DNA of 5,371 bases from Nitrospirota bacterium (lineage in GTDB: Bacteria; Nitrospirota; Thermodesulfovibrionia; Thermodesulfovibrionales; JdFR-88): the NCBI GenBank assembly GCA_021825785.1, contig JAKAGP010000154.1, positions 1 to 5,371 of the forward strand. The letters are read 5' to 3'. A program made the translations under genes and the position numbers. Under the pieces are notes generated by a model that ran no database searches, was not told the DNA's origin, and saw nothing but the letters and a program-made list of their open reading frames with translations. Of the stretch, positions 315 through 5,371 are shown piece after piece. Position 1 is the first letter of the stretch. Each line of letters starts with the position of its first letter.

Positions 315-839
315 CTATGGACCAGGTTGGCTGCGCGCCTCTTCGAGCAAAAATCTCAGGGCCTCAAGGGCCGCCTCTTTCTTGTTCTCCAGCCGCCCGC
401 CTTTAAGCAGAAGTTTTTTTACGCGCACTTGACCGCTCCCTTTGGAACAAACCCCTACGTAAATCAGTCCGTTCTCTTTTCCTTCGAGCGCCTCGGGGCC
501 CAGATTGCCTGTGATGGCAAGGGCAAGGCCGGAGCCAACCAATCCCATCACGCCTTTGGCCATCTCCCGCACCGCCTCTTCGCTCACAACACCTGAGGTC
601 TCTATCACCTCCAGAGGGACATTGAGTATCCTTTCCTTGGCCAAAGCTGAATAGGAGATAACGCCCGCCATGAAAAAGCGGCTTGCGCCAGGCAGCTGGG
701 TTATGTAATGGCTTATAAGCCCGCCCGTGCAGGATTCGGCCACGGACAGGGTCAGGCCGTTGTCCTTGAAAAGACTGTGCAGACCGGCAACGGCCTCAAG
801 CACGTCATCTGGAAGACCCGATTTATTATCTGTTCCCAT
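315..839 (-). CDS. pncC: CinA C-terminal-domain protein, PncC-type nicotinamide-nucleotide amidohydrolase
   Basis: The 174-residue product is the stand-alone C-terminal domain of CinA, lacking the N-terminal COG1058 domain of full-length CinA. Family members deamidate nicotinamide mononucleotide to nicotinate mononucleotide in cytoplasmic pyridine-nucleotide recycling. Visible signatures are AESCTGG about 33 residues from the start, carrying the family's active-site Ser, and YSALAK about 30 residues later, matching the conserved Tyr and Lys. The usual glycine-rich GIAGPxGG segment reads TGNLGPEALEGKENG, so activity is less certain. The ATG at 839 suits the normal family length (E. coli PncC has about 165 residues). 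An in-frame ATG at 869 adds 10 residues and a TTG at 908 adds 23. Neither ATG has a convincing Shine-Dalgarno sequence. The thioredoxin-like gene ends 73 bases upstream on the same strand, so cotranscription is likely. Confidence 0.85.
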   Translation of the reverse strand: MGTDNKSGLPDDVLEAVAGLHSLFKDNGLTLSVAESCTGGLISHYITQLPGASRFFMAGVISYSALAKERILNVPLEVIETSGVVSEEAVREMAKGVMGLVGSGLALAITGNLGPEALEGKENGLIYVGVCSKGSGQVRVKKLLLKGGRLENKKEAALEALRFLLEEARSQPGP

Positions 840-882
840 ATTGCCCGTCACTGGAGTATCTACCACCATATTGCACGTCACT
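836..882 (-). repeat. 30-bp-period direct duplication around the pncC start
   Basis: Bases 836-852 and 866-882 match at 16 of 17 positions (CCATATTGCMCGTCACT on the plus strand). The spacing is 30 bases, exactly ten codons. On the minus strand each copy carries one of the two candidate ATG starts, so the extended reading gives VTCNM and VTGNM ten residues apart. The simplest explanation is a short tandem duplication of the initiation region. Confidence 0.6.
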
Positions 883-912
883 TGACCGGGAGAAAAAGCA
901 AAAAACAAAAAA

Positions 913-1407: not shown

Positions 1408-1526
1408 GAAAATCACCTCCGGCCTTACTCTTTTTACCCTGTTTTTATTATACTACTACATAAAAACAAACAAACAGAAACCCTTTCAGGTCTTTGCTTT
1501 TTGTATTTTCCGGAGGTTAATTTTAA
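1408..1526. promoter_or_regulatory. Divergent promoter region between thioredoxin-like and cytochrome genes
   Basis: This AT-rich region holds both start signals. For the minus-strand gene, TATAAT lies at 1452-1447, with a weak TTTGTT/TTGTTT -35 match about 15-16 bases upstream; it predicts a leader of about 33 bases containing GGAGGTGA. For the plus-strand cytochrome, TATACT at 1449-1454 overlaps the reverse -10, with only a poor -35 (TTACTC, 1425-1430). GGAGGT at 1512-1517 stands 9 bases before the ATG at 1527. The minus promoter and both ribosome sites are reasonable; the plus promoter is tentative. No operator palindrome was seen. Confidence 0.45.
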
Positions 1527-3269
1527 ATGAGAAAAAGAAAATTATTTTATGCTTTACTTGCCGCGCTGATAATTTTTATTACGGCAGGCAACGCCTTCCC
1601 CCAGGAGACCGGAGCTGCGCTTTCTTCCAGCCTGATCAGCCCCCAAAGCCGCAAATGCATTGAGTGCCATTCCAGATACTCACCCGGCATTGTAAATGAA
1701 TGGCTTTCCGGCTCTCATTCAAGAATAACTCCCGATGACGCCCTCCGGAAGCCGTCCATCGAGCGCATGTTTTCCGCCCGGAGCGCTCCCGGCGGCTCCG
1801 GCCAATACGTAACAGGCTGTTACGAATGCCATGGCGTAAATACAGGCGCTCATAAGGACAGTTTCCGGCATTTTGGAACAAAGATAAACGTGATAGTCTC
1901 TCCGGCGGACTGCGCCCTTTGCCATCCTGTGGAGCAGGCGGAATTCAATAAAAGCAAAGAGTCGTTCGCCTGGAGCAACCTGGAAAACAATCCCCTGTTC
2001 CATACCCTGATGGATACCGTCATAGGGACAAAAGAGGTATCGGACAGCAGTATCAGTATAGAAAAACCCATGGATGGGCTTGCGGGCAGCGTATGTTACG
2101 GATGTCATGGAGACAAGATAAAAGCGGCGGGGATGAAGCAGCTGTCCACGCCGGTTGGCATCATCAATGTGCCTGACCTTAAAGGCTGGCCCAATACAGG
2201 CATCGGACGGGTCAACCCGGATGGTTCGATGGGCGCGTGCGAGGCCTGTCATCCCGGCCATTCATTTTCGATCGAAGACGCGAGAAAACCTTATACCTGC
2301 GCCAGGTGTCACACCGGCCCTCATGCCCCGGCCTGGGACGTATACCAAAAAAGCAGCCATGGGGTCATATTCCTTTCAAACGGGACCGGATGGAATTTTA
2401 CCCGGGTGCCCTGGAGACCGGGAACGGATTTCAAGGCCCCAACGTGTGCGGCGTGCCATAACAGCCTTTTGACGGGGCCGGACGGCAAGGTTTTAGCGGA
2501 AAGGACACACGATTCGGGATCGAGGCTCTGGGTGAGGCTCCTTGGGCTTATTTACTCCACCGCCCAGACCAAAAGCGGTGATACAACGATGCTGAAGAAC
2601 AAGGATGGACTGCCGCTTCCTTCCAGTTTCGAAGGCGAACCAGGCTCAAAATACCTTATCAGCAAAACGGCGCAGACAGACCGTGAGGACGGGATGAAAG
2701 CCATTTGCAACTCCTGTCACGCAAGCCAGTGGACAAACGGGCATTTCACAAAAATGGATGAATCCATACAGGCCGCCGATAACATGACTCACGCCGCGAC
2801 AAAACTCGTACAGGAAGCATGGCGGACGGGAGTTGCCGATGAGACAAACCCGTTTAATGAGCAAATAGAGATGGACTGGGTACGGCAATGGTTCTTCTAT
2901 GCAACGGACATAAAATACGCCGCGGCAATGTCCGGGGCCTCGGATTATTCGGCTTTCAAAAACGGTTTTTGGAATTCAAGTCAAAACCTGCTGGAGATGG
3001 AAGACCTCTCAAAAGGGCCCCAGGTGGTCAAGGTGGCGCCAAAGACGCCTAAACTGATAGGAATACCTGAAATCCCGTTTAAAAAGACCTCCAAAACAAA
3101 AAGAAAGGCCAAAGGCAAGTCTAAAAAGAAAAAGCATCAAAACAAAAAACATAAAAAGCACATTGTCAGGAAAAAGAGCGCAAAGAGAAAAAAGAAATCG
3201 CATAAGAAATCAAAGAAGATATCAAAAAAGGAACCGAAGAAGAAAAAGAGCAGAAAGGCTGGAAAATAA
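1527..3269 (+). CDS. HAO-like octaheme cytochrome c with polylysine C-terminal tail
   Basis: The 580-residue product begins with a Sec signal peptide (MRKRK, hydrophobic 7-20, likely cleavage after GNA at 23). It has exactly eight CxxCH heme sites at residues 44, 98, 129, 190, 238, 258, 307 and 394. Segments such as CEACHPGHSFSIEDARKPYTCARCHTGPHAPAW, continuing to VYQKSSHG, with CAACH about 45 residues after CARCH, resemble the hydroxylamine oxidoreductase family. There is no CxxCK, unlike octaheme nitrite reductases. Family members work in the periplasm on hydroxylamine, hydrazine, NO or nitrite. Tyrosines after heme 8 (458, 464, 474) include candidates for the crosslink that marks oxidative enzymes; alignment is needed to tell. 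Residues 519-580 are extremely basic and not part of the known fold. No membrane anchor, haoB or quinone-linked partner gene is visible nearby. Confidence 0.85.
   Translation: MRKRKLFYALLAALIIFITAGNAFPQETGAALSSSLISPQSRKCIECHSRYSPGIVNEWLSGSHSRITPDDALRKPSIERMFSARSAPGGSGQYVTGCYECHGVNTGAHKDSFRHFGTKINVIVSPADCALCHPVEQAEFNKSKESFAWSNLENNPLFHTLMDTVIGTKEVSDSSISIEKPMDGLAGSVCYGCHGDKIKAAGMKQLSTPVGIINVPDLKGWPNTGIGRVNPDGSMGACEACHPGHSFSIEDARKPYTCARCHTGPHAPAWDVYQKSSHGVIFLSNGTGWNFTRVPWRPGTDFKAPTCAACHNSLLTGPDGKVLAERTHDSGSRLWVRLLGLIYSTAQTKSGDTTMLKNKDGLPLPSSFEGEPGSKYLISKTAQTDREDGMKAICNSCHASQWTNGHFTKMDESIQAADNMTHAATKLVQEAWRTGVADETNPFNEQIEMDWVRQWFFYATDIKYAAAMSGASDYSAFKNGFWNSSQNLLEMEDLSKGPQVVKVAPKTPKLIGIPEIPFKKTSKTKRKAKGKSKKKKHQNKKHKKHIVRKKSAKRKKKSHKKSKKISKKEPKKKKSRKAGK
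3081..3266 (+). other. Polylysine tail coding segment of the octaheme cytochrome
   Basis: These 62 codons (residues 519-580) encode 33 Lys, 4 Arg and 4 His with a single acidic residue (Glu569). They remain in frame to the stop at 3267-3269. The DNA is purine-rich and A-rich, with runs up to six A, unlike the balanced codons of the heme domain. A short proline-rich linker (about residues 500-518, PKTPKLIGIPEIPF) joins it to the folded part. The sequence is low in complexity but not a perfect tandem repeat. Confidence 0.85.
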
Positions 3270-3304
3270 AAGAAAAGAAAATAAAATAAAAATCCCTTTT
3301 GCTT

Positions 3305-3907
3305 TTATCTGTATGCTGATTTGTCTCCGATGTCGCAATGCAAGGGCATAAAGACCTTACGGGAGGCAAAGAGCACATAAAGAGCGGCGATAAGCACGAT
3401 CCCAAAAATTACGCCGGTCTTCCCCAATGCGCCTGTTGAAAAGGCCATAAGAAAAAGCGGCATTATCATCATAAGCAGATACCCCTCTACAAGCCTGAAG
3501 CAAAATGCCTCTTTCGCTGCAATAAATCCCGCACAGCCGGAAACAGGAAGCAGCAGCAGCGCCGCCGCCGGCGTCCCGGTGAGATAAGCGAGGCCATTAC
3601 CCTCCCCTTTTATCAATATCACGGCAAGACCGGCAAGCGCCAAAATATAAAGACCTTTCAGGTTCCTTTTGAAGCTGCCTATATACAGGTGGATGAAAAA
3701 AACACCAAGCCCCGTGGCCAGATAGAACAGCACAAGGAAAATATCGAAATAAAGGGAAGCCTTCCCGGCGCTGACTACGGGATAAACTGCGGCAAAAACG
3801 GCCAGAGAAGCAAGAAGTATGCCGCTAAGCGCTATTGATGCGCGGTAGATAAAAACGGTTATCCTGTCGGTTTTCGTTAGCGGCTGGTAAAGGATATAGT
3901 CGCCCAT
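3305..3907 (-). CDS. DUF2301-like integral membrane protein
   Basis: The 200-residue product is strongly hydrophobic, with about six membrane segments near residues 20-44, 52-74, 85-100, 112-131, 142-158 and 163-181. The conserved-looking stretches FIHLYIGSFKR (71-81) and KEAFCFRLVEGY (132-143) fit my recollection of the DUF2301 membrane family, whose function is unknown. The ATG at 3907 is preferred. A TTG 45 bases upstream would add 15 basic residues and overlap the upstream gene. The upstream small lysine-rich gene ends 4 bases before this start, so the two are probably cotranscribed and translationally coupled. No good Shine-Dalgarno sequence is seen; AGAGG lies about 20 bases away. It converges on the cytochrome gene with only 35 bases between the stops. 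Confidence 0.75.
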   Translation of the reverse strand: MGDYILYQPLTKTDRITVFIYRASIALSGILLASLAVFAAVYPVVSAGKASLYFDIFLVLFYLATGLGVFFIHLYIGSFKRNLKGLYILALAGLAVILIKGEGNGLAYLTGTPAAALLLLPVSGCAGFIAAKEAFCFRLVEGYLLMMIMPLFLMAFSTGALGKTGVIFGIVLIAALYVLFASRKVFMPLHCDIGDKSAYR

Positions 3908-3911
3908 GGCT

Positions 3912-4145
3912 CTAAAAACTCTTTTTCCTCTCTTTTTTCTTCCAGACGGCAAGGTCGTCCAGCATGGTTTTCACCAACTCGATTGGCGTTTTTGTTTTTT
4001 CCGCCACTTCCTTGCACCGGCACGTTTCCATTTTTTTGTCTTTTTGCACGCCGGGTTTTTCTTCTTTTTGCAAACCCGGGCCTTCGGCGCTCTGCCGCCC
4101 GCCTTTTGCCGCCACAGGTCTTTTTATCTTTTTATCCTGCTTCAT
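3912..4145 (-). CDS. Small lysine-rich protein of unknown function
   Basis: The 77-residue product is not recognised. Its N-terminal half is basic and low in complexity, with two eight-residue repeats, PGLQKEEK (23-30) and PGVQKDKK (31-38). Then METCRCKEVAEK carries a CxC (Cys42, Cys44). The C-terminal half, TPIELVKTMLDDLAVWKKKE, looks like an amphipathic helix and is probably the conserved core. There is no signal peptide or membrane segment, so it is likely cytoplasmic. The ATG at 4145 is chosen over a TTG at 4169 because a consensus -10 box sits between them. The DUF2301-like gene follows after 4 bases, suggesting a two-gene unit. The CxC could bind metal, but nothing proves this. Confidence 0.6.
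   Translation of the reverse strand: MKQDKKIKRPVAAKGGRQSAEGPGLQKEEKPGVQKDKKMETCRCKEVAEKTKTPIELVKTMLDDLAVWKKKERKKSF
4032..4079 (-). repeat. Two-copy 24-bp tandem repeat inside the small lysine-rich gene
   Basis: Two adjacent 24-base units encode PGLQKEEK and PGVQKDKK. They share the core TGCAAAAAGA and differ at several third positions, so the duplication is not recent. The CCGGGTTT/AAACCCGG inverted repeat at 4051-4058 and 4072-4079 arises from these units. Confidence 0.6.
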
Positions 4146-4160
4146 CTTTTTATTATAGCA
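4146..4160 (-). promoter_or_regulatory. Extended -10 promoter, possible leaderless start
   Basis: On the minus strand TTGCTATAAT (4161-4152) gives a perfect TATAAT preceded by TGC, an extended -10 pattern. Six bases (AAAAAG) separate the box from the ATG at 4145, so the usual start point would be the A of that ATG. No Shine-Dalgarno sequence precedes the ATG, which fits a leaderless message. The -35 region has only weak matches in an A/T-rich tract. Confidence 0.45.
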
Positions 4161-4227
4161 AGGGCACAAAAAACAATTTTTTTATTTTATCGCAAGGGCT
4201 GAAATCACAAAAACCGGTCCCCGGCAG

Positions 4228-4481: not shown

Positions 4482-4505
4482 CCAAAAAACTCTTCTTTTT
4501 CTTTA

Positions 4506-4817
4506 GAACCTGTCTCAAAATCGATTTCGAAGCGAAAGAGAGCGGAAACCGTGGCAGACAATCTCTTCTGGACAGGGGAGAAAAGGGGAAACCGCCCGGA
4601 GGCGCAACGTCAAAATAGATTCCCGCTTACGACATGCGGGCATGACCTCAAATTCAAGACGTCATGCCCGAGGACCTTAATCGGGCATCCACTTTGAGTC
4701 ACTTATTTTTCCCGGACGAACAGTCAGCGCTGCGCCCGTGACGATTTTCCTTTATGACGCCGTATGCCGCGATTTCTTAAAACCTCTTGCATCCGGAAGC
4801 AATTTTGAGATAGGTTC
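4506..4817 (+). repeat. MITE-like interspersed repeat, copy B (complete, 312 bp)
   Basis: The element begins GAACCTGTCTCAAAAT at 4506 and ends ATTTTGAGATAGGTTC at 4817. These are 16-bp terminal inverted repeats with one mismatch. It contains no plausible protein-coding region, so it is best read as a non-autonomous miniature inverted-repeat element mobilised by a transposase encoded elsewhere. Copies A and C match it in the same orientation. I could not identify a convincing target-site duplication or assign the ends to an IS family. Its last two bases form part of the stop codon of the SWIB gene. Confidence 0.85.
4619..4688 (+). other. Cluster of competing stems inside the MITE
   Basis: Four short motifs alternate in orientation: ATTCCCGC (4619-4626), GCGGGCAT (4636-4643), ATGCCCGA (4664-4671) and TCGGGCAT (4681-4688). 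Neighbouring pairs form two outer hairpins with 9-base loops, one with a mismatch and one perfect. The middle two, extended to CGGGCATGAC (4637-4646) and GTCATGCCCG (4661-4670), form a perfect 10-bp stem that excludes the others. In copy A the first hairpin is perfect and the others have a mismatch. Confidence 0.65.
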
Positions 4818-5184: not shown

Positions 5185-5198
5185 TAAAATTATTTACA

Positions 5199-5371
5199 GG
5201 ACCTGTCTCAAACTTTATTTCGAAGCGAAAAAGAGCGGAAATCATGGCAGACAATCTCTTCTGGACAGGGGAGAAAAGGGGAAACCGCCCGGAGGCGCAA
5301 CGTCAAAATAGATTCCCGCTTACGACATGCGGGCATGACCTCAAATTCAAGACGTCATGCCCGAGGACCTT
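5199..5371 (+). repeat. MITE-like interspersed repeat, copy C (right end outside window)
   Basis: It begins GGACCTGTCTCAAACT at 5199 and runs to the window end, in the same orientation as copy B. Bases 5245-5371 are identical to 4552-4678 over 127 bases. The first 46 bases differ from copy B at about seven positions. The same stem motifs are present. About 140 bases of the right part should continue beyond the window. Confidence 0.85.

Follow-up and report, generated by a model that had tools for sequence, protein, structure and literature searches.

A polycationic C-terminal tail as a putative envelope anchor of an octaheme cytochrome c in a Nitrospirota lineage

The window, as we call the whole 5,371-nucleotide stretch of Nitrospirota DNA analysed here, encodes an octaheme cytochrome c that ends in a long, lysine-rich tail. 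We propose that this tail is a disordered polycation which keeps the exported, IhOCC-type cytochrome on anionic envelope surfaces, a reading whose chances we regard as evenly poised. The tail would hold the cytochrome to the outer face of the inner membrane, to acidic wall or capsule polymers, or to lipopolysaccharide, and would do so via charge density, without a sequence motif. The cytochrome tail would be a single instance of something that the lineage does more widely, since its D,D-carboxypeptidase is also apparently tethered by a long basic C-terminal tail. From the observations below we infer export, a retention role for the tail and the kind of anion involved. The envelope placement of soluble multiheme enzymes in bacteria without cultured relatives is poorly known.

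Results

The cytochrome gene and its neighbours

The cytochrome gene (1527..3269, + strand, stop included) encodes 580 residues and matches PF13447 (E 5.4e-18). Its reading frame starts with ATG and has no internal stop, and a GGAGG resembling a ribosome-binding site lies upstream of the ATG on the same strand (1512..1516). By eye, residues 1 to ~25 (1527..1601) form a Sec-type signal peptide with no lipobox cysteine, and AlphaFold2 (AF2) places a helix at residues 2-21; judging from this N-terminus, the protein is apparently exported. Alignment to the structure 4qo5, conserved columns and the AF2 model delimit an octaheme domain, including its C-terminal helices, at residues 35-496 (1629..3014), with invariant and nearly invariant columns in the alignment of relatives. 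The domain is followed by a linker at residues 497-518 (3015..3080), recognised by its composition, and by the polycationic tail at residues 519-580 (3081..3266), assigned from composition, shuffles and AF2.

The first-pass annotation had described a complete eight-heme domain, a proline-rich linker and a strongly basic end reached with no frameshift, and our recount bears out this description. Eight CXXCH motifs lie within residues 44-398 (at 44-48, 98-102, 129-133, 190-194, 238-242, 258-262, 307-311 and 394-398), five of the 22 linker residues are proline, and the 62 tail residues comprise 33 Lys, 4 Arg, 4 His and 1 Glu, with no Asp. The frame is open throughout and the tail recurs in relatives. 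The gene is identical in the window and in the genome contig G000:C196 (100% over 1740 bases), and the protein (P0001) is listed on five contigs. Together with the tailed relatives, these copies rule out a frameshift or assembly artefact.

Two divergent neighbours lie on the − strand upstream of the cytochrome: a thioredoxin-like protein (Pfam PF03190 and PF13899, 913..1416), whose relatives adjoin the cytochrome in three of the ten loci examined, and a CinA/PncC-type protein identified by profile matches (315..908), the marker of a conserved locus. A convergent DUF2301 membrane protein (Pfam, 3305..3952, − strand) recurs in three other genomes of the genus (G001-G003). The start of its ORF is overlapped by an 85-residue, Lys-rich ORF (3912-4169, − strand), which has no Pfam match and has relatives in G002 and G003 at 46-55% identity. 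The window also carries a dispersed repeat family, outside the Pfam-matched genes, at 2-89, 123-224, 4505-4753 and 5198-5371, including 174-nt copies that are 96% alike and an 88-nt core found at three places. One repeat stretch (4556-4700) has at least 45 matches in the 2.96 Mb of the window's own genome, as counted with 40 of 171 candidates scored.

Relationship to known octaheme enzymes

The best solved relative of the cytochrome was 4qo5 (E 5e-106, or 4.3e-165 with a profile), which carries the label hypothetical multiheme protein in the structure search and which we take to be IhOCC, the octaheme cytochrome c of Ignicoccus hospitalis. The alignment spans residues 35-354 and 373-494, covering both the haem region and the helices at the C-terminus. 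Hydroxylamine oxidoreductase (HAO) proper shares a stretch of the octaheme core, as does hydrazine dehydrogenase (1fgj, 6hif; NF052343), but this family aligns in pieces only. The score against the hydrazine dehydrogenase equivalog NF052343 was 57.5 bits, below its cut-off of 900. HAO proper has a cross-link from a tyrosine to haem 4; the alignments to 1fgj stop at its residue 401, and the region relevant to the cross-link presumably lies past this point. By sequence comparison, the enzyme is best classed as an IhOCC-type octaheme cytochrome rather than a canonical HAO, and the earlier label of 'HAO-like' is best replaced. IhOCC is said to be trimeric and to reduce nitrite and hydroxylamine, and by analogy the window cytochrome is probably a nitrite- or hydroxylamine-reducing enzyme.

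Predicted structure of the tail

AF2, run with 50 sequences, returned a model with a mean pLDDT of 68, in which the last helix spans residues 473-496 and pLDDT falls below 50 at residues 501-519 and 521-580. Parts of the haem region (e.g. 241-289) likewise fell below 50, perhaps as haem is absent from the model, so that low confidence alone is no proof of disorder. The composition of the tail agrees with disorder, and we consider the tail probably disordered. Hydrophobic residues (ILMFVWY) make up only 6-19% of the cytochrome tails, which makes insertion into a membrane unlikely, and we rejected an amphipathic or transmembrane anchor on account of this low content. We also looked for a Pfam or NCBIfam sorting signal behind the haem domain; no listed model has its best stretch in the tail.

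Distribution of the tail among relatives

A close relative of the cytochrome is encoded by 11 of 12 genomes of the family, and ten of them, counting that of the window, have the basic tail (L001-L010). The basic blocks range from 27 to 95 residues and vary in sequence too; a basic tail of varying length in close relatives was what the first-pass annotation had proposed to look for. The remaining genome, G006, encodes a tail-less cytochrome, which falls in a different clade and lies at a different locus. In that genome another multihaem gene (8673-10151) comes after the tail-less octaheme gene (L040:7351-8592). In the loci of all nine tailed relatives, a simple gene call places 0-2 ORFs between cinA and the nearby cytochrome, and a gene whose G002 copy encodes an NAD-dependent DNA ligase lies next to or not far from cinA. 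This shared neighbourhood indicates that the tailed cytochromes are the same gene by position.

We built a tree of 143 rows, from which the tails were removed beforehand. It comprised the listed 120 of 3212 homologues and 23 of 35 loci, leaving aside L001 and L007 (a copy and a near copy of rows in use), L024-L030 (distant), L031, L034 and L035. Tails were defined as at least 25 residues with a net charge of at least +9, a class set after the tails had been seen. The 21 tailed rows, which include near-identical pairs, make up one side of a single branch (SH-aLRT 99, by a quick method); the names given by the sources for members are Nitrospiraceae or Nitrospirae (P0007, P0012, L031). The tree fits a single origin of the cytochrome tail. 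A related-locus search returned five loci, namely L031, which is seemingly G002's own contig with an identical tail, and four distant ones. We also searched with PF13435 for other tailed multiheme proteins; of the ORFs that end within the retrieved loci, those with such a tail were all copies of the known cytochrome.

As the first-pass annotation had supposed, the chain of most relatives stops shortly past the helix that follows heme 8: among the 141 classified rows (all except P0079 and P0094, which were unclassifiable), 105 have no basic extension (net below +5) and 15 have a basic stub of only 7-14 residues. Such stubs occur in P0013, P0022, P0044, P0045 and 11 others, as if the C-terminal end were prone to basicity, and they require six changes on the tree. 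This scatter suggests that a mildly basic end is spread in the wider family and that one family of organisms has elaborated it into the long tail.

Charge and constraint in the tail

We compared the charge of each tail to that obtained from dinucleotide-preserving shuffles of its DNA. The window's own basic block (64 residues, 517-580) has a net charge of +36, which was reached by none of 1000 shuffles; these had a mean charge of 21.8 (s.d. 4.0) and averaged 1.8 stops and 5.9 Asp+Glu each. A/G-rich DNA therefore explains much of the charge, but not all. The charge exceeds all 1000 shuffles in five of the ten tails (G000, G001, G002, G008 and G010), and was reached by 4, 9 and 10 of 1000 in G007, G011 and G009, respectively. 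In G003 and G004 it was reached by 37 and 160 shuffles of 1000; composition explains most of the charge in these two tails, which do not stand well above it. Seven of the ten tails hold 1-2 Asp+Glu, and three hold 5-9. Arg partly substitutes for Lys, and CGN codons are used in eight of the ten.

Next, we asked how the tails change between relatives, using eight overlapping pairs with uncertain tail alignments, one of which (G009/G011) differs at only one place in the tail. The tail dN/dS, computable in five of the eight, was 0.25-0.44, compared to 0.07-0.18 in the core. Where Lys/Arg sites of the tail differ, the charge is retained in 29-56% of cases across the seven pairs concerned, whereas random single nonsynonymous changes would be expected to retain it in 18-22%. 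At core Lys/Arg sites, the charge is retained in 7-20% in six of these pairs and in 1 of 2 cases in the seventh. From the tail dN/dS and the charge-keeping substitutions above expectation, we conclude that charge, and not sequence, appears to be under moderate constraint.

These data bear on two further explanations. The tail may have arisen by nearly neutral growth of low-complexity sequence, in which slippage extended the A/G-rich end of the gene and the charge came along incidentally. Imperfect tandem repeats, all of them short, lie at 3122-3157, at 3188-3245 and, spanning the stop, at 3262-3291; these repeats, the +21.8 yielded by shuffling alone, the widely varying tail lengths and the scattered short basic ends are all as this explanation would have it. 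However, all clade members that were seen retain the tail, its dN/dS stays below 0.5 with charge-keeping changes exceeding expectation, Arg comes via CGN codons, and Asp and Glu are nearly absent from most tails; we therefore consider nearly neutral growth very unlikely. Alternatively, the tail may be a transient element that slows the ribosome at Lys runs to allow haem attachment or export, or that is clipped later. Poly-basic stretches slow ribosomes, and long runs of Lys codons stand at the extreme 3' end of the gene. Yet relatives have Arg and mixed codons, some of their tails are short, and a peptidase without haem has such tails too (see below), leaving this explanation with scant likelihood.

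A second tailed enzyme, a D,D-carboxypeptidase

We surveyed ~934 kb of G002 (~42% of the genome), which holds 796 ORFs of at least 100 residues. By a crude rule, 188 of these have an N-terminal hydrophobic stretch, and three of the 188 have basic C-terminal tails: the cytochrome, a Peptidase_S11 D,D-carboxypeptidase (Pfam E 7e-58) and a 129-residue protein with no Pfam match. The last of these (L118:4506-4895) ends in a Lys/Ala-rich repeat tail behind its hydrophobic N-terminal stretch. At three of 188 in this portion of the genome, basic tails do not appear to be a general feature of export. Nine other basic-ended ORFs in the sample have no N-terminal hydrophobic stretch by the same rule; several of them look, to our eye, like RNA- or DNA-binding proteins. 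One of the nine, L089:10292-11302, matches TPR, YfiO and TolA_bind_tri models and could be an envelope protein overlooked by the rule.

The S11 enzyme was found in 14 of the 16 genomes searched; no S11 match was found in G006. Within the family, each of the 11 genomes that gave a match has the enzyme with a basic C-terminal tail, including the copy from the window's own genome (L094, G000:C155:521-1618, confirmed by Pfam). We determined tail charge and ran shuffles for 14 of the 15 peptidase loci, L104 being unparsed. The C-terminal stretches in the 11 family genomes comprise 79-126 residues with a net charge of +27 to +46, and each exceeds all 500 of its shuffles. For three tails from other families, shuffles reached the charge 0, 20 and 248 times of 500. 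Among the best 120 of 1159 S11 homologues (P0121-P0240), 114 have a net charge of at least +15 behind the catalytic fold. The source names in this set are mostly Nitrospirota, with one Actinomycetota. In one homologue, P0162, the basic stretch is followed by a LysM domain.

We also searched for PF07943, which we take to be the PBP5 C-terminal domain; it was not found in the G002 copy or in the copy from the window's own genome, and it is listed for none of the best 120 of 1159 homologues. E. coli PBP5, likewise a D,D-carboxypeptidase, is bound to the inner membrane through an amphipathic helix at its C-terminus, without which it is not correctly localised (PMC2909392). In the S11 enzymes of the window's lineage, the charged tail appears to occupy the place of the PBP5 anchor.

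The tails of the two enzymes differ in kind, being Lys-rich in most cytochromes and mostly Arg/His-rich in the family peptidases. This argues against a single receptor, and the two may bind different things. Retention by charge is the simplest reading of a flexible cationic end on the cytochrome and a comparable end on a cell-wall carboxypeptidase. The first-pass annotation had offered two roles, retention on anionic surfaces and docking of an acidic redox partner; the similar tail of the S11 enzyme favours the former, indirectly, and weakens the latter.

As a docking arm, the tail would capture an acidic redox partner or aid oligomerisation. Across ten proteins, the net charge of the core runs from −10 to +2 (haem propionates uncounted), mildly acidic to neutral, and the tail could thus bind other copies of the protein or acidic partners. 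On the other hand, the eight haem motifs are kept in relatives that lack the long tail and share 48-55% identity with P0001 in alignment A1 (50 of the 120 listed homologues), and the cytochrome gives the sole haem-protein match among the six window ORFs compared to Pfam, one other being thioredoxin-like. A similar tail on a non-redox enzyme of the same genomes makes a redox-docking role less likely still, and overall we judge docking to be quite unlikely.

The anionic partner may instead lie outside the cell, where a tail fixed to acidic exopolysaccharide, extracellular DNA or mineral would place the cytochrome for electron exchange. In G002, genes for NusG-like, Poly_export/SLBB and Wzz/GNVR proteins lie ~3-8 kb from the cytochrome (L037:6539-11247), and homologues of at least one of them occur in seven of ten family loci (L036-L045). 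These nearby polysaccharide-export genes keep an acidic capsule or matrix polymer among the possible layers for the tail. Binding at the surface has a precedent in HBHA of mycobacteria, a surface protein that attaches to heparan sulphate via its Lys-rich C-terminus. Against this location, there is no sign of passage through the outer membrane, and the similarly tailed peptidase is expected from its family to be periplasmic. We regard a surface or matrix location as unlikely.

Discussion

Retention of the cytochrome at the envelope by charge suggests a broader, more tentative proposal, for which we would claim some plausibility but which we think will rather fail than hold in full. In this Nitrospirota lineage, interchangeable disordered polycationic C-terminal tails would serve as a general electrostatic anchor, keeping selected exported enzymes on an acidic polymer of the envelope. 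Such a tail would replace the PBP5 membrane anchor in the D,D-carboxypeptidase, while the octaheme cytochrome, a respiratory or detoxifying enzyme, would have been recruited once, in one family.

Should a simple charged tail be enough for placement, the localisation of many environmental proteins could be predicted from their sequences, with the tail itself usable as a portable anchor. The basic tails of the S11 enzymes, in 114 of the 120 listed of 1159 homologues, amount to a testable prediction of an anionic layer in the lineage. Narrow literature searches, with most subscription papers outside their scope, returned no report of tails on octaheme cytochromes or of the frequency of S11 tails. 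Charged tails that bind anionic polymers are already known, for example that of HBHA.

Comparison with known systems indicates what is shared and what is particular to the tailed proteins. IhOCC (4qo5) has the haem domain and the C-terminal helices in common with the window cytochrome, but its deposited chain of 521 residues stops six residues past the aligned stretch and has no basic tail. IhOCC is termed membrane-associated in the title of its paper, as given in the reference list of PMC8840924. PBP5 (PMC2909392) resembles the tailed enzymes in that a C-terminal addition fixes an exported enzyme at the envelope. The means differ, since PBP5 uses an amphipathic helix whereas the cytochrome tails are poor in hydrophobic residues and that of P0001 has no predicted structure. 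HBHA is an unrelated protein and a host-binding adhesin, likened here by description and not by sequence; in HBHA, as we propose for the cytochrome, the Lys-rich C-terminal part of the protein binds an anionic polymer, in its case a polysaccharide.
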